A stretch of 20,305 nt of DNA, taken from a virus. Under the pieces are notes generated by a model. That model searched no databases and was not told the DNA's origin. It worked only from the letters and a program-made list of their open reading frames with translations. The translations under genes were made by a program, and so were the position numbers. Numbering within the stretch: position 1 is the first letter of the stretch; each line of letters starts with the position of its first letter. This document shows positions 4,814 to 13,420 of this stretch, in pieces. The stretch covers positions 1-20,305 of the IMG/VR virus record IMGVR_UViG_3300031658_000194; one strand, written 5' to 3'.

Positions 4814-6193
4814 CTAGTTCATTAATATGAAGTTATTAGCTCCCATAACACAAAGTGCTCTTTCTGATAAGAAATGTACTTCCATGTTATCTTTATCTGT
4901 AGTAGATGCTCCACCAGCAGATCCAGTTACCCAAGACTTATACTTTCTGTCTTCAGTAGCAGACTGACGGTAACGAACATGTAAAAATGGTCGTTTAGCG
5001 TTTTGTCCTAATACCTGATCGTAGATAGTAGTTGTCCCAGCAGGAACCATAATTCCGTCAACACCACCAATGTTACCTCTTGTAGTAGCATCGTTTAAGT
5101 ATTTCCAGTCAGACTTATAAAAGTCATATCCAATTCTAAATCCAGTAAATCCTAGATTTAAAGCCATGTCTTCGTCGTTATCAAATAAACCATAAGAACT
5201 TGTAGAAGCTCCAGAGTTGTTTTGATCAGCTAATACTCTATCAATTTTGAAAGAAGTATCTCTGTTTACGAAAAGAACATTTTCTTGAATAGCTCCTTCT
5301 TTATCAAGAACTTTAGCGAAAGCCTCAAGATCATCTCTATCCGTGATATCTCCAGATGAAGTGTTTCCTCCATTTTCGATTTCATAGAAAAGACCTTTTG
5401 TACCTTTGTAACCTGCAGTTAAAGCAGCAGAAGACGCGACAGCTGGTTCTCCTTCTACCATTGAAGTTTCAAGGTAGTCTTCGAATCTTAATCTCGTTTC
5501 GTGCTCAGACTTCAAGTACCATAAGTAACCAGAAGCTCCGTTTTCAGTAGTTACTTCTACCCAACCAACATGTGCCATCTCAGATCCAGATACTTCGTAT
5601 TTGTCTTTGATGATAATAGGGTTGTTCTCTTTAGCTTCCATACTAGCTTGTAAAGATCCAGACATTCCATTTGTTCCTTTTTTAAATTCAGAACCGAATA
5701 CAAAGATTTTTACAGCATCAGAAGCAGAAAAAGATCCTGCTCCAGTAACCATATCAGCGTGTGAGTAAGGTGCTACTTCGATAGAATCAGCTGCGCTAGC
5801 ATCTGTTACTAAAGCTTTAATTTGTACAGTAGCAGCTGCGTTAGAAACAATAATCGTTTGATTAGTTCTAAAGTCATGCCCTGTAGCAGCGATAGTATTA
5901 CCATCTGTAATAACCCCTGCAGCTTGTACGTGTAACCTTCCTTGCTCAGTCCACTTAATTAAGTCAGAGCTAGATGGAAGTTCAGCTCCAACTAATCTTA
6001 AGAAAGACGCGATAGATCTGTTTCCATATTTTTCAAATTCTTTCTCATACAAATCTGGTAAATGTTGTTGTGCGAAAGTATAGTCAGCGTTACTAAGGTA
6101 GTTAGCATTTTGTAACCCCTTACTTGGCGCTGGCGTAAGAGCTGTAGAACCTGCGATAGTTCCTGCTCCTCCGAATGTAATTGCTTGTGCCAT
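4814..6193 (-). CDS. Major capsid protein (HK97-fold), 459 aa
   Basis: This protein should form the icosahedral shell. It follows terminase, portal and an acidic scaffold-like gene, the standard place for the capsid gene, and has the usual length. Residues 35-90 contain a helical N-arm (NADYTFAQQHLPDLYEKEFEKYG) and a segment LPSSSDLIKWTEQGRLHV that I recognise from capsid proteins of crAss-like and related marine podovirus-like phages. The end (about 440-456, HFLSERALCVMGANNFI) is also typical. Residues 100-165 look like a beta-rich insertion. The middle has a probable P-domain region (about 290-360). Codon choice is somewhat more GC-ending than in neighbours, as expected for high expression. 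The ATG follows an almost pure A/T leader without Shine-Dalgarno, and an intrinsic terminator lies just downstream. The fold is inferred from family and position. Confidence 0.9.
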   Translation of the reverse strand: MAQAITFGGAGTIAGSTALTPAPSKGLQNANYLSNADYTFAQQHLPDLYEKEFEKYGNRSIASFLRLVGAELPSSSDLIKWTEQGRLHVQAAGVITDGNTIAATGHDFRTNQTIIVSNAAATVQIKALVTDASAADSIEVAPYSHADMVTGAGSFSASDAVKIFVFGSEFKKGTNGMSGSLQASMEAKENNPIIIKDKYEVSGSEMAHVGWVEVTTENGASGYLWYLKSEHETRLRFEDYLETSMVEGEPAVASSAALTAGYKGTKGLFYEIENGGNTSSGDITDRDDLEAFAKVLDKEGAIQENVLFVNRDTSFKIDRVLADQNNSGASTSSYGLFDNDEDMALNLGFTGFRIGYDFYKSDWKYLNDATTRGNIGGVDGIMVPAGTTTIYDQVLGQNAKRPFLHVRYRQSATEDRKYKSWVTGSAGGASTTDKDNMEVHFLSERALCVMGANNFILMN

Positions 6194-7414: not shown

Positions 7415-9925
7415 TTACAACATGTTTTGTTGATTCATTTGTTGCATCATTCCAGCCATTGGATCTTGATTAGGTTGTTGAGGTTGTCCACCCATTGCAG
7501 GCATCTCTAATCCACCTAATCCTTGTTCTTGTCCTTGAGGCTCTTGTCCTTGACCATTTTCAAAATCAGTTGGTGGTAAGTCTTTTTTTCTTTGACTTAT
7601 CATTTTACTTTGTTGAGAAGCTTGTTTTTCTGTTCTTTTATCTTTTCTATCTTCCTTTTCACCTTCTCTACTTGAAAAACCCTCTATCTCTAATTTCTTT
7701 AATTCCATTGCATGTTCGAACTTCATTTGCTCTAACTCTTTCTCCAACTTAGCCTTTACCTCTAGTTTCTGAAGATCCATTTTATTTGTCATTTGAAGCA
7801 TTTGAGCTTCAGACTGAGCTTTAATATTATTTTCTTGAGTTCTAGCTTGAGCAGCAGATTGAGCAGACTGAGAATTAGCTTCAGTTTGCATTTTAGTTTT
7901 CTTCTCCTCAAGAGACATATCGTTTTCTTCTTTCCTTGCTTTTCTTACTTTAAGTAACATATTGGCTAAATGTAAATTATTAACCATTCTAAGATCAATA
8001 ACATCATCTAAATCTATCTTACCAGATTGTAATGCTAATTGTATATTTTGTTCTAGCAATGATTTTTCTTCTTCATCTGGTTCTAATTCTATATAAATAC
8101 CAAAATCATGAAGATGTAAGTTTTGTATTTCAGAAATTACCTGAAAGTTGTTTTTACCAATCATCTTAGCAAAGTCTTCGCTAAATGAAGAGTATTTTAA
8201 TATATCAGATATTCTATAAGATAAAGCAGTACATAATTCTTTAGTGATATTTATACCAGCCTGAACAACATGCCTAGTTGCTGTGTTGCTATTTAAAGCC
8301 GCTAATTTCTGAACACCTACCAAAGAGTATTGATCTGGTGAACTTCCATCTCTAGCTTCATTAATACCTGTAGCAGCTCTAATCATATTAAGCTGATAGT
8401 TATACATATTAATTAAACTAGATATTTTAGCATTAGACCCACTACTTGTTAATTCTTGTATTGGAACTCTAGCATTATTAAATTCTCCATCTTCAGTATA
8501 ACTTCTACCTATAACACTACCTGTTTGGAAGTACATAGATAAAGCTTCTGAAGGATTATATGACGCTCCGTTTCCTAAATCAACACTATTTAAACCATCG
8601 GCATCTATAAAAACCCCATCTGGAATCATTTTAGATACTACTTGTTGTAACTTAAGGTGTACTAATTGTATTTGATCAGCAAAAGGAATCATTCTTTTAA
8701 CTAAAGAATCAACTTTACCTTTTGTCATTTTAGGTGCAGATAATAAATAAGGTGCACAAGTTTTTTGAAAAGCAGACTTTGGCCTAACCATATTCTGCAT
8801 AAGCTCCCACTTGATAAGTTTATTACTTCCCAACACCATAACTCCTTCATACCAAACATCTATTCTTCTAGACGCCTTTACAAATCTTTCTGTTTCTCCT
8901 TCTGGATTAAAAGAAGAATCTTTTTTTATAGGTTTTTGACCACCATTTACGGTTTCTTTTATTTTATATACAATTTCTTTATCTGTTTTGTAACAGAAAT
9001 ATAATAAAGAAACGTTAGAATTATCTGATCCACCAGATTGATTTACTGTTGATTTAAACCCATCAAGTCTACTTGCTGTTTTAGCTAAATCTTCTAACTC
9101 TTCTTGAGTTAAATTAGGATTTATCTTTTTTAATTCAGTAACATGAGAATTTTTTACCTCTCCATAATAATAACAATCCTTAAAAGAAGGATCTTCTGTT
9201 GGGGAATATATTAAATTAACTGGATCTACATATTCTATTCGAACTCCATCATGAACATCAAAACTATGCTTAATAGCTGATATACCTAAAACTACATTAT
9301 CCTCTGTAGTTCTTTTAGATAACTCTTCATAATCGTTAAGCTCTAGCAATGAATTTATAGCTGTTTCTTCTGCTATCTCTATTCCTTGCTTATATTTAAG
9401 CTTCATGTATAAACCTAGTTCTTCAGTAGTTCTAGGTAACTCACCTTCTTCGAAATTAAATATATCAACTCCAGTTTGTTCTTTAAGTTCTTTTAATGGT
9501 TGATAAGCAATCATATCTGCTTCCATCTCCTTTCTAAAATCCTCTCTAATTTCACTAGAGTAAGAATCTACAGCTTCAACTTTAACATCGTATAATCTAT
9601 TAGCTATTCCGTTAACTACTATATCTACATATTTAGGTATAATAGCTACAGGAGTCCAATCTAAATTTAGATAAGATAAATCTCCATTAATAGATAATTC
9701 GTTTTTATATTTTTCTACTGGCTGTTCAGCCCTAGCATAAAGTCTCCTTAACAAGTATTCAGATCTCATGTCTCCATATAACGAAGACCCTCTGTCTCTC
9801 GAAAACCATTCTGATTCAATTGCCTGACCTACACGAAGACCATACTCCAATGTTTCTTTTTCTTTATCTGGAGCAAATTGATTAGGGAATCCTGTTCCAG
9901 AAGTGAACTTTGGGTTATTTATCAT
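7415..9925 (-). CDS. Portal protein, 836 aa
   Basis: This should form the dodecameric portal through which DNA enters and leaves the head. It directly follows terminase (two bases between stop and start, TAGATATG) and has the length of crAss-like portals (about 800 residues). Residues 500-580 carry the pattern MIRAATGINEARDGSSPDQ, LVGVQKLAAL and NTATRH, which I recognise from portals of Bacteroidetes podovirus-like phages; it probably includes the channel helix. Residues 85-110 hold a helix of the clip and wing region. Residues 655-775 are a long Lys/Glu/Gln coiled coil, and 785-836 are Gln/Gly/Met/Pro-rich and probably disordered. This extended C-terminus would project into the capsid as a barrel or tail, or assist scaffold docking. 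Family assignment is strong; the C-terminal role is inference. Confidence 0.94.
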   Translation of the reverse strand: MINNPKFTSGTGFPNQFAPDKEKETLEYGLRVGQAIESEWFSRDRGSSLYGDMRSEYLLRRLYARAEQPVEKYKNELSINGDLSYLNLDWTPVAIIPKYVDIVVNGIANRLYDVKVEAVDSYSSEIREDFRKEMEADMIAYQPLKELKEQTGVDIFNFEEGELPRTTEELGLYMKLKYKQGIEIAEETAINSLLELNDYEELSKRTTEDNVVLGISAIKHSFDVHDGVRIEYVDPVNLIYSPTEDPSFKDCYYYGEVKNSHVTELKKINPNLTQEELEDLAKTASRLDGFKSTVNQSGGSDNSNVSLLYFCYKTDKEIVYKIKETVNGGQKPIKKDSSFNPEGETERFVKASRRIDVWYEGVMVLGSNKLIKWELMQNMVRPKSAFQKTCAPYLLSAPKMTKGKVDSLVKRMIPFADQIQLVHLKLQQVVSKMIPDGVFIDADGLNSVDLGNGASYNPSEALSMYFQTGSVIGRSYTEDGEFNNARVPIQELTSSGSNAKISSLINMYNYQLNMIRAATGINEARDGSSPDQYSLVGVQKLAALNSNTATRHVVQAGINITKELCTALSYRISDILKYSSFSEDFAKMIGKNNFQVISEIQNLHLHDFGIYIELEPDEEEKSLLEQNIQLALQSGKIDLDDVIDLRMVNNLHLANMLLKVRKARKEENDMSLEEKKTKMQTEANSQSAQSAAQARTQENNIKAQSEAQMLQMTNKMDLQKLEVKAKLEKELEQMKFEHAMELKKLEIEGFSSREGEKEDRKDKRTEKQASQQSKMISQRKKDLPPTDFENGQGQEPQGQEQGLGGLEMPAMGGQPQQPNQDPMAGMMQQMNQQNML

Positions 9926-9927
9926 AT

Positions 9928-12144
9928 CTATGTAATAATTTCACTAACAAAACCTTTGTTACTGTACTTTGCAAAGTTAACATTTATTTGATCACGTTTT
10001 TTTACTTCCCTGTTCTTATTACTTTGATTAGCCATTATAGCAAACCCTGAACTAACAGTAGCATCAAACTTAGTTCTATTGTTAATATCGTAGTTAGACC
10101 AGTCTAATAGAGTTCTATTAAAAAACATATTCCCACATGATCCAAAATCAACATCTTCTTGATTAGTTATAACACCAACATTATTTTCGATGTAGCTTTC
10201 TATAGCTTCAGCGTGTACAGAAATTACAGCAGAAGAAGAAGGAATTCCACCTAATTCTTTTTCTGATTTAGAAAGTATATTCCTATGCTTATCAGGTCTG
10301 TTTAAAGAGAACCCCCTGTAACCTCGCTCTTTTAAATAGTATAGTAATCTAGGTTTATTGTTTTCTACAAGTATAGGCATACCATAGTAATGAAGAGCCA
10401 TTAAAACATCTTCATAAAATATTTCAGCAGTTGGAGGTCTAGATATATATTCTAAAAAAAACATATTAGTTGGAGCATCATCCATATGAAACTTAGTCAT
10501 TCCAGATAAAGACCCTTTAGATCCACCACCACCTACAGTTCCTGATATATCATATGAATCACATCCAAAAGAACCCATGTGAATGTTTCCGGGATGTTTT
10601 TTATTTCCTTTCACAATCACGTTATTCATAAGACTAGGTGAAGGCATCCATGAAATATAAAATCTACCTTTATTATCTGGAGCCCAAACAACTTCTGTAT
10701 CTCTTTCTCCATTCTTCCAATGAAAATTACCTCTCATTATATTGCTTTTAACAGCAAAAGAATCATTGTAATCTATTTGTTCATATAACCTAGTAAGATT
10801 AAATAAAGTGTTTTTTGATTCATCTCTAAAAGCATGAGACTCTGTTTTAGGAAACTGCCTATAAAATTCATTTAAAGCATCTGAATCATTTTTTAAACCA
10901 TCAACCTCATTATCCCAACTCTCTAATACCCCGGAGTCTATAACATCTCCATAAGAATCTAAGACCTTACTATCTGGAGCATCAAATACAGGATGTCCGA
11001 ACTCATCTATATATCCTTCAAAATTCCATTCCATAGGAATAAATAAACTATAAAGTCCAGACTGAGTTTGTCCATTTTTATTTCTTTGTGTAGCGTCAGA
11101 GTTTTCGTAAAGTTTTTTAAAGTTTCCACCACCTTTTTCTAAGGCATTAGAAGTAGATCCCATCATACATTTACCTATAACCCTAGAACCTAACCTTAAT
11201 GTTGTTTTTGTAACCCTCCAGTTGTTGAGGATGTTTTCTGGCTTCTCCCATTTACCCGCTTCATCATGGACGAGGAGGGATAGTTTTTCTCCATCATAGG
11301 AGTTGTCGCCCGTATTTTTCCAGTCAATGGTTGTGTCCAGCCCTTCCATTTCTTGAGGCTTATCTTTTGAATCGAATCTTTTTCTTGTAAATTTGGATGC
11401 TGGTACTCTATATGCGAGTTCCGTCTTGGGACGATCCATACCGTCCTGTATTGGTCTGAAAAAGAATGGATAATTGATTGAAATTGGAACCACTTTATCT
11501 GTGAACATCTTTTTCGCATCGGCTCCAGATTTGGACAGAATCCCAAACCGTGAATCGGAAGATATGGTCGCCAAGTTAACAGTCTCTGCGGATGCCATGA
11601 ACGAAAAACCACTACGTCTATTCTTGAGATAGCACATTCCGTAACATCTTTTATCCGCTTTACATGCTTCCCAAAAGATAAAGAATATCCTATTAGCTTC
11701 CCTGAAGTCTGGGTTTCCAACATCGATTTTTGTCCACTGCAAGTACATATAGTGAGAGCCAGTAATATAAGTGCTAACCCCTTTATTTGTAAACCAATAA
11801 CCCTCTTCACGCCTTTTAAATTCATTATCTATGTAGTTATGCCAATTACCTTTAAATTCATCAGGCAAATCCTTCCAATCAAAAATACTTTGTACGTTTT
11901 TTAATTCTTTTGGATAGTCCTCTTTAACCCATTTCTTTGTTTTGGCAACGTTGTTGGGTTTAGGTAATGCAATAATCAGGCCTTGAATAGAATATATCTC
12001 TCCTATTTCACCTGTTCTACTAATAATAATAACATCATACTCTTTATTATAGCCATAAGACCATAATTTATTCTTATTATTATGCCTTATAACCTTTTCA
12101 GGTATTATATTCGACACAACAGAGTATAAAGTTTGTTTATACAT
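9928..12144 (-). CDS. terL: Terminase large subunit, 738 aa
   Basis: This is the DNA-packaging motor, with an N-terminal ATPase and a C-terminal RNase H-fold nuclease. The P-loop at 174-181 reads KNRRSGFS: there is no GK[TS], but Lys174 precedes the arginines as in the deviant lambda-type P-loop. Walker B is LLVHDEAG with Asp294 and Glu295. A coupling motif GSTSNA lies at 329-334. Nuclease acidic residues are visible at Asp529/Asp532 (GCDSYD), Glu594 (VENN) and Asp694 (KFDATVSSG). All key residues are present, so it looks functional. It overlaps the upstream small gene by one base (TAATG) and is followed by portal. Bases 11221-11760, encoding roughly residues 129-308 including P-loop and Walker B, have higher GC and different codon choice than the rest of the gene. 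Confidence 0.97.
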   Translation of the reverse strand: MYKQTLYSVVSNIIPEKVIRHNNKNKLWSYGYNKEYDVIIISRTGEIGEIYSIQGLIIALPKPNNVAKTKKWVKEDYPKELKNVQSIFDWKDLPDEFKGNWHNYIDNEFKRREEGYWFTNKGVSTYITGSHYMYLQWTKIDVGNPDFREANRIFFIFWEACKADKRCYGMCYLKNRRSGFSFMASAETVNLATISSDSRFGILSKSGADAKKMFTDKVVPISINYPFFFRPIQDGMDRPKTELAYRVPASKFTRKRFDSKDKPQEMEGLDTTIDWKNTGDNSYDGEKLSLLVHDEAGKWEKPENILNNWRVTKTTLRLGSRVIGKCMMGSTSNALEKGGGNFKKLYENSDATQRNKNGQTQSGLYSLFIPMEWNFEGYIDEFGHPVFDAPDSKVLDSYGDVIDSGVLESWDNEVDGLKNDSDALNEFYRQFPKTESHAFRDESKNTLFNLTRLYEQIDYNDSFAVKSNIMRGNFHWKNGERDTEVVWAPDNKGRFYISWMPSPSLMNNVIVKGNKKHPGNIHMGSFGCDSYDISGTVGGGGSKGSLSGMTKFHMDDAPTNMFFLEYISRPPTAEIFYEDVLMALHYYGMPILVENNKPRLLYYLKERGYRGFSLNRPDKHRNILSKSEKELGGIPSSSAVISVHAEAIESYIENNVGVITNQEDVDFGSCGNMFFNRTLLDWSNYDINNRTKFDATVSSGFAIMANQSNKNREVKKRDQINVNFAKYSNKGFVSEIIT

Positions 12145-12422
12145 TATTTAGATCTTCTTTCAGCAAACCCACTAAATGCTTTTTTATCGTTTTCAATAGG
12201 TCTATTTTCTATATAACTCTTTTCTTGTTCTATTCTAGAAAGTATCTCAAAAGCATCGAATATTGCTAGCTTTTTTGTTGCTGCCGCATTCTTAAGCCTG
12301 TCCGCAGATACATCATCTTCTGTTCCTGTAACAATTTTTTCCTTTGCTACGTTAATTAACTCATCTACAGCTTGATGTCCAGCCTCTATAATTCTTCTTT
12401 TAATCTCATTTAAGTCTTGCAT
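12144..12422 (-). CDS. Candidate terminase small subunit, 92 aa
   Basis: This small protein is largely helical: LNEIKRRIIEAGHQAVDELINVA (about residues 4-26), then DVSADRLKNAAATKKLAIFDAFEILSRIEQE (about 38-68), and a basic tail ending ERRSK. It sits immediately before terL and overlaps it by one base (TAATG), which implies translational coupling, and its start overlaps the DUF3310 gene by 13 bases. Small-terminase subunits are short helical proteins that recognise phage DNA and are usually encoded exactly here. No clear helix-turn-helix stands out, and the length is at the short end for the group. The call is mainly positional; another packaging accessory protein would also fit. Confidence 0.55.
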   Translation of the reverse strand: MQDLNEIKRRIIEAGHQAVDELINVAKEKIVTGTEDDVSADRLKNAAATKKLAIFDAFEILSRIEQEKSYIENRPIENDKKAFSGFAERRSK

Positions 12423-12625
12423 GCCATTTCCTTATTAATTCTATCAATTTCTCTTTGTAAATAATCCTTAGCTTTTAAAAGATCTTGTAATTCATCCTTC
12501 TTCTTACCTGCTCTTACAACGTACTTGATGACGTTACCTCTACAGAAATTTACATTATAATCATTAATTACATCAATTAAGTCGTAAGTTTTTCCATTAT
12601 CATAATGTGGTTGTGTGCTTTTCAT
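12410..12625 (-). CDS. DUF3310 family protein, 71 aa
   Basis: Residues 7-66 match the DUF3310 pattern I know: HYDNGKTYDLIDVI, then FCRGNVIKYVVRAGKK, then DLLKAKDYLQREI. The protein is little more than this domain. The family is widespread in phages; members include lactococcal SaV proteins and a segment linked with phage nucleotide kinases such as T7 gp1.7. The role here is unknown, with nucleotide metabolism or host interference as possibilities. It sits between the GroES-like gene (10-base gap) and the small terminase candidate (13-base overlap). The start ATG follows an AT-only leader (TTTATAAATATG) without Shine-Dalgarno. Confidence 0.88.
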   Translation of the reverse strand: MKSTQPHYDNGKTYDLIDVINDYNVNFCRGNVIKYVVRAGKKKDELQDLLKAKDYLQREIDRINKEMACKT

Positions 12626-12635
12626 ATTTATAAAT

Positions 12636-13196
12636 TTAACTTAAAATTGTACACACGTCTTTAGTGTTCATTCTATATAGTACTTCGTCGTTTATAACAA
12701 ACTTATACTCACTGTTTTTGCTAAAGTTTATTTTACATTTTTCGTTAACTCCTAAATTCCTTAAAGAATTATTGGAATAAACTACAACACCTGTATTCTC
12801 TTCCAAACCTTCTTGATGAAGATACTTATGTTCTAAGTCTATAGGTTTCACAAAACAAAATTCATCCACTGAATTCCATTTTACACCATCGTGATATAAA
12901 TAGAATTGACTAGGGTCTATAAAATATATATTATCTTTAAAGAAATTAGGAGACCTCCTAGGCCTACCTTTCATATCATAATATATTCTAAAAACATTAT
13001 GATGAACTACAATAATGTCTCCTTTTTTAATCTCTCCCTTATAATAATTAGGTACACAGATTACTTCAGCGAATCTATTTACATTTTCGTGATTTTCAAC
13101 AGAAGAGTTGATTATAATCTTCTCTCCTGCAATCTCTATTGTATTTTGATATTCGCTTCCTTTTGGTTTAATTAAAAAAAAGAAAGGTGATTTCAT
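12636..13196 (-). CDS. GroES-like co-chaperonin candidate, 186 aa
   Basis: The sequence resembles phage-encoded co-chaperonins in two parts. Residues 1-72 contain FLIKP, then a polar stretch, RFAEVICVPN and IKKGDIIVVHHNVF, like the GroES strand order with the G-D pair before the barrel strand. Residues 114-186 contain CFVKPI, TGVVVY, LGVNEKCKINF and FVINDEVLYRMNTKDVCTIL, matching the GroES C-terminal ending. The protein is twice the usual 95 residues, so a double GroES fold is suggested. A start at 13196 is chosen over the earlier ATG at 13223 because it gives the TAATG junction with the upstream stop and removes a 28-base overlap. A co-chaperonin would work with host GroEL to fold capsid or tail proteins. 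No phage GroEL is seen. Chaperonin binding is inferred. Confidence 0.68.
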   Translation of the reverse strand: MKSPFFFLIKPKGSEYQNTIEIAGEKIIINSSVENHENVNRFAEVICVPNYYKGEIKKGDIIVVHHNVFRIYYDMKGRPRRSPNFFKDNIYFIDPSQFYLYHDGVKWNSVDEFCFVKPIDLEHKYLHQEGLEENTGVVVYSNNSLRNLGVNEKCKINFSKNSEYKFVINDEVLYRMNTKDVCTILS

Positions 13197-13420
13197 TAAA
13201 AGTTTATATTGAATTCGACACAAATAGGAACATTCTTGTTAAATGATTTCCATGGTATAATTTCATCTTTCTTTTTGATGAATATAAAATAAGATTCCTG
13301 GTCAACATCATACTCTATTAAAAATATAGTATAATTTCCACCTAATATCTCTTGCCCTACAATATAATGCATAGCACTAGACTTATAATCTGCGCCTATA
13401 GATATCTTACGAATTTGCAT
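13196..13420 (-). CDS. Hypothetical protein, 74 aa
   Basis: I recognise the pattern (RKISIGADYKSSAMHYIVGQEILGG near residues 3-27) from small hypotheticals that accompany the GroES-like gene in other marine phages, but no function is known to me. The protein looks like an alpha/beta mix with strands NYTIFLIEYD and SYFIFIKK and no membrane segment or signal peptide. Its stop shares one base with the start of the GroES-like gene (TAATG), so the two are probably translated together. The start lies seven bases after the stop of the 86-residue gene. Confidence 0.75.
   Translation of the reverse strand: MQIRKISIGADYKSSAMHYIVGQEILGGNYTIFLIEYDVDQESYFIFIKKKDEIIPWKSFNKNVPICVEFNINF

Follow-up and report, generated by a model that had tools for sequence, protein, structure and literature searches.

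A tandem two-domain GroES-like protein in the packaging module of Bacteroidota phages, a putative co-chaperonin

The phage co-chaperonins described so far are mainly replacements of GroES with a single domain. An example is gp31 of phage T4, which forms a heptamer, uses the GroEL of the host and has as its client gp23, a virion protein. The window analysed here, a virus record of 20,305 bases that represents a 20-kb fragment, carries on its minus strand an ORF for 186 residues (12636-13196; ATG at 13196, stop at 12636-12638) whose product was described in a first-pass annotation as two GroES-like halves with an apparent internal duplication, a possible lid for host GroEL. The locus raises the question of whether some phages encode a double co-chaperonin and, if so, which barrel it would close and in what company.

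Two GroES-like domains in one chain

The motifs on which the first description was built are found where it placed them, with FLIKP from residue 7, IKKGDIIVVHHN at residues 56-67, CFVKPI from residue 114 and a C-terminus reading NDEVLYRM...CTILS. An AlphaFold2 model of the full-length protein, computed from 70 sequences with an alignment drawn from IMG/VR loci (mean pLDDT 79, pTM 0.72), consists of two successive barrels and no other domain. The first barrel runs from the strand at residues 7-11 to that at 98-102 and the second from 113-118 to 181-185. The best full-length match in the PDB is 7ekq_R, named there as a Cpn20 co-chaperonin subunit (Foldseek E 1.4e-4, VIA-align Z 10.2), with 149 residues aligned at 4.4 A over model residues 1-186. 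The C-terminal domain (residues 108-186; 12639-12875, minus strand) matches the structures of GroES (Z 9.7) and T4 gp31 (Z 7.6-8.0). Because this half dominated the list of full-length matches, the N-terminal domain (residues 1-104; 12885-13196, minus strand) was modelled separately (pLDDT 87). GroES and gp31 structures occupy rows 1-14 of its VIA list at Z 5.8-7.4, headed by GroES (Z 7.4) and a gp31 complex (Z 7.1), all values below 8 and obtained with a predicted model. The tandem gene is predicted to encode two GroES-fold domains in a single polypeptide, and the proposal of two GroES-like halves is borne out, each half matching GroES best and gp31 as well. The 'GroES-like' fold of MDR alcohol dehydrogenases ranks below GroES in both structural lists, mostly at Z 3-6; it was rejected because GroES comes first and the C-terminal half of relatives is Cpn10 by sequence.

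At the sequence level only the second half is recognised, and only in relatives. Pfam Cpn10 (PF00166) matches the C-terminal half in 47 of 70 family members at E values up to 1, and the scores for phages phi38:1 (28.2 bits) and phi18:3 (32.6 bits, E 8.5e-8) lie above the cut-off of 21.1 bits. The window protein itself has no Pfam Cpn10 match. The N-terminal half is not recognised as Cpn10 by sequence in the family; its alignment to a small GroES profile is weak (hhalign probability 7%), and a profile comparison between the two halves detects no similarity (hhalign probability 1.5%). The equivalence of the halves therefore rests on structure and on the GroES likeness of each. The negative comparison also excludes a recent internal duplication; if duplication is the origin at all, it would be old, given that the first half is unrecognised by sequence and shows no detectable relation to the second. 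Of the duplication suggested at first, the two GroES folds are retained and the mutual sequence similarity is not. The family profile finds no match among PDB sequences, and a phmmer search of the single protein against the same sequences gave only chance matches, to pyruvate kinase. A weak Pfam match to TiaS (E 0.086) was likewise taken as chance.

The protein belongs to PHROG 13932, 'co-chaperonin GroES' (E 2.7e-16, residues 14-182 on positions 13-196 of 200), a family reported as a core protein of the Pervagoviridae (PMC8776804). Full-length homologues occur in 77 phage records, including Flavobacterium elemoviruses, a Maribacter phage and the Cellulophaga Callevirus phages phi38:1, phi40:1 and Calle, and gp96 of phi18:3 is a more distant member. 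A scan of viral contigs with the family alignment confirmed at least 586 stretches. Sixteen relatives come from genome bins of bacteria or archaea, where they plausibly represent phage contigs binned with cells. The window protein is homologous over its full length to the PHROG members and to the 'chaperonin cpn10' of Callevirus, Elemovirus and Baltivirus, and its gene has the same place beside the terminase, but it is divergent from the members in phage isolates (about 30-40% identical). Neither annotation mentions a two-domain architecture, and no paper noting a tandem phage GroES or its pairing with a single GroES was found in the open-access literature, where absence is weak evidence. The family is thus already known, while its tandem architecture and the pairing with a single-domain GroES are apparently undescribed.

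Chloroplast Cpn20 (7ekq_R from Chlamydomonas; Arabidopsis Cpn20) is likewise a chain of about 190 residues with a pair of Cpn10 domains arranged head-to-tail and, like the phage protein, is found alongside a single-domain Cpn10 and a Cpn60. The likeness to double co-chaperonins drawn in the first-pass annotation holds in structure, in a fold also related to T4 gp31. However, there is no useful sequence similarity between Cpn20 and the phage protein; both halves of Cpn20 are GroES by sequence (in two stretches) whereas only the C-terminal half is in the phage family, and the C-domain loop of the phage protein is shortened. The phage gene is probably the product of an independent duplication. 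T4 gp31 is also a phage-encoded lid with the GroES fold, but it is a single domain rather than two fused ones and, unlike gp31, the tandem GroES is accompanied in most relatives by a phage GroEL and a further single GroES. CocO of RB49 is another phage-encoded GroES-fold lid; the structural matches given here are to gp31. Bacterial GroES (Cpn10) has the same fold as each half; the tandem protein differs from it in its double length, in extra N-domain residues and in the short C-domain loop.

A fixed place in the packaging module

On the minus strand of the window, tail-type structural proteins are followed by an 86-aa ORF, a 74-aa ORF (13196-13420) and the tandem GroES gene. Downstream come a DUF3310 protein (12410-12625; PF11753, E 6e-15), a 92-aa ORF (12144-12422; 127 homologous ORFs in the fetched loci), the terminase large subunit (9928-12144; PHROG 6681, E 4.3e-167), the portal protein (7415-9925; PHROG 6547, E 1e-143) and capsid-type proteins. 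One of these, a virion structural protein (4814-6193, minus strand; PHROG 13704, E 2.6e-102), is probably the major capsid protein and is the proposed chaperonin client, since in Calle_1 the structural protein at the corresponding position, second after the portal, is noted as the major capsid protein. The original placement of the gene next to the terminase is nearly right: in the window the DUF3310 and 92-aa ORFs intervene, and in elemoviruses and Callevirus the tandem gene abuts the terminase directly. Among loci of Bacteroidota phages whose sequence continues for 2.5 kb or more past the tandem gene, all 110 have a terminase gene downstream on the same strand, no further than 2.1 kb away; the figure refers to loci and not to independent genomes, because some share one contig. 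The tandem gene's place among the packaging genes points to late expression and to virion proteins as clients.

The same fixed place beside the terminase would also suit a protein that has left the chaperonin cycle, its GroES fold now serving in packaging, at the portal or in head assembly. Across 70 diverse family sequences conservation is strongest in the N-terminal domain (HHN at residues 65-67, G77) and not in the loops, and the shortening of the C-domain loop points in the same direction. Against this, a hydrophobic triplet in the N-domain loop is conserved, phi18:3 keeps a canonical loop sequence, GroEL and a single GroES usually co-occur with the tandem gene, and in phi18:3 and phi38:1 neighbouring genes carry a virion-protein label that the tandem genes lack. 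Such repurposing appears improbable.

Nearly every locus has a homologue of the 74-aa ORF immediately before the tandem gene, and in the window the stop of this ORF overlaps the start of the tandem gene in a TAATG junction. It may encode a functional partner of the tandem GroES. Members of this family have 74-75 residues with the pattern IRKISIGxDYK...AMHYIVGQ, and their stop usually adjoins or overlaps the tandem start; the family has no Pfam match and no significant PHROG match. The stretch separating the tandem gene from the 92-aa ORF is likely a gene-exchange spot, because close relatives have different small genes there, DUF3310 in the window (12410-12625) and, in the sister contig G002, another ORF of 90 aa (2525-2797). 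Homologues of the DUF3310 protein are represented by only two ORFs among the fetched loci.

GroEL and single GroES in relatives

Longer relatives commonly encode a barrel and a second lid, with GroEL present in 18 of 22 and a separate single-domain GroES in 19 of 22, the latter close to GroEL and on the same strand. GroEL has also been reported in related marine phages (PMC5332604), and for phi38:1 mass spectrometry revealed the phage GroEL both in infected cells and in samples of virions (PMC13288928). Sister contig G002, whose tandem protein is 87% identical to that of the window and which shares its gene order around the tandem gene, carries, on the same strand and about 18.6 kb upstream of its tandem gene, GroES (21960-22238) and GroEL (22235-23830). 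No GroEL is present in the 20-kb window, which reaches only 7.1 kb upstream of the tandem gene, so that a pair placed as in G002 would fall outside it. The remark in the first-pass annotation that there is no phage GroEL nearby is therefore misleading, and by comparison with sister contigs the window phage would have its own GroEL and GroES. Elemovirus, MW202828 and L181 also have GroEL together with a single GroES. The most compact version seen is that of L181, a contig binned as Sphingobacteriales, in which GroEL, single GroES, a 75-aa ORF, tandem GroES, the 92-aa ORF and the terminase lie on one strand within about 9 kb.

An adaptor that would close host GroEL and need no phage barrel had been proposed on the assumption that the phage lacks a barrel gene of its own. 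T4 gp31 is a precedent, and two relatives fit the arrangement: the complete circular record of phi18:3 has both lids and no GroEL in an HMM search of the whole record, and the 72.8-kb Callevirus-like record G022 (from L117) has a single and a tandem GroES and no GroEL match. Most relatives do encode GroEL, however, and the sister contig and most long relatives have the single GroES as well. As a general account the host adaptor is quite unlikely, and a lid for host GroEL may apply, if anywhere, to relatives such as phi18:3. In the Pachyviridae, phi18:3 (NC_021794, L183) has its single and tandem GroES at 31108-31362 and 41458-42060, phi13:2 (NC_021803, L185) also has both, and in the two phages the tandem gene lies just upstream of the terminase.

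A single GroES was found in all complete or near-complete genomes examined. Three fragmentary relatives yielded neither GroEL nor a single GroES, and for this reason an obligatory pairing of tandem and single GroES is unproven; the co-occurrence in 19 of 22 long relatives is consistent with a hetero-oligomer and does not prove one.

Mobile loops and a proposed mixed lid

The mobile loops were expected at about residues 14-40 and 121-136, close to the low-confidence segments of the model at about 11-40 and 121-134. The N-domain loop spans about residues 11-42, is 27-31 residues long and, where GroES has its mobile-loop motif, contains a conserved GG-x-x-hydrophobic triplet (residues 23-29). By column counts residues 27, 28 and 29 are hydrophobic in 100, 97 and 73% of sequences, respectively. 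In phi18:3 this loop contains TESGLEL, which closely resembles the KTESGLLL found in single phage GroES proteins, and all 23 distinct single GroES proteins examined have the G-hydrophobic-x-hydrophobic motif. The C-domain loop, between P118 and G136, has 16-19 residues and no clear GroES motif in most members; in Callevirus-like members it has 26-27 residues with NGLRV or GSIIV. This difference in length suggests that the loop was shortened in the lineage of the window.

In chloroplasts Cpn20 and Cpn10 form active mixed oligomers, for which a 3:1 arrangement has been proposed, and binding to GroEL needs at least four functional subunits out of seven (PMC4242682). The phage protein is, with reasonable likelihood, a co-chaperonin acting together with the single GroES, possibly in a mixed seven-domain ring, in the folding of virion proteins. 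Late in infection it would help to close a chaperonin barrel, which in most relatives would be encoded by the phage itself and in phages lacking a GroEL gene would come from the host. The closed barrel would fold virion proteins, with the capsid protein as the most probable client. For the lid a mixed ring, for example of three tandem chains and one single GroES, would be the likeliest architecture, comparable to that proposed for Cpn20/Cpn10. Such a ring would offer three N-domain loops and one loop of the single GroES, which makes four good contacts and equals the reported minimum. The make-up of the ring and the partner and clients of the tandem protein are all proposals. Counting against them are the missing Pfam Cpn10 match of the window protein, the short C-domain loop with its missing motif in most members, the apparent loss of GroES-contact residues from phage GroELs and the three fragments in which no single GroES was found.

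The tandem protein might instead form a homo-oligomeric lid on its own for late virion proteins, with the single GroES serving GroEL separately. In several genomes the tandem gene, in the packaging module, and the single GroES, beside GroEL, are 13-21 kb apart, which suggests separate regulation, and homo-tetramers of Cpn20 are functional in vitro (PMC4242682). On the other hand, chains of two domains cannot tile a seven-fold ring evenly, in the lineage of the window only the N-domain loop looks intact, and the single GroES accompanies the tandem gene in every complete or near-complete genome. A lid of tandem chains alone is accordingly held to be unlikely.

The purpose of the mixed Cpn20/Cpn10 lids of chloroplasts is still debated. 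A bolder form of the mixed-lid proposal, which we put forward only tentatively, is that Bacteroidota phages independently evolved the chloroplast solution, an obligatory lid of tandem and single GroES in which only the N-terminal domains and the single GroES contact the barrel, leaving an asymmetric chamber for virion proteins. Widespread phage lids of this kind, usually with their own GroEL, would be a compact and tractable model of Cpn20/Cpn10 lids and would also supply a defined set of clients, the virion proteins. The role of the tandem lid is directly testable in the cultured phages phi38:1, phi18:3 and Calle.

ATPase residues are retained in the phage GroELs, with D52, D87, D398 and, for the most part, the DGTTT motif unchanged. 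These proteins appear to differ from E. coli GroEL at several apical positions that contact GroES, in a region where the alignment is uncertain, and the differences may therefore be taken only as a hint that barrel and lids co-evolved. The phage GroELs (L033, L034, L023, L139 and others) are 34-40% identical to that of E. coli and end without its GGM tail.
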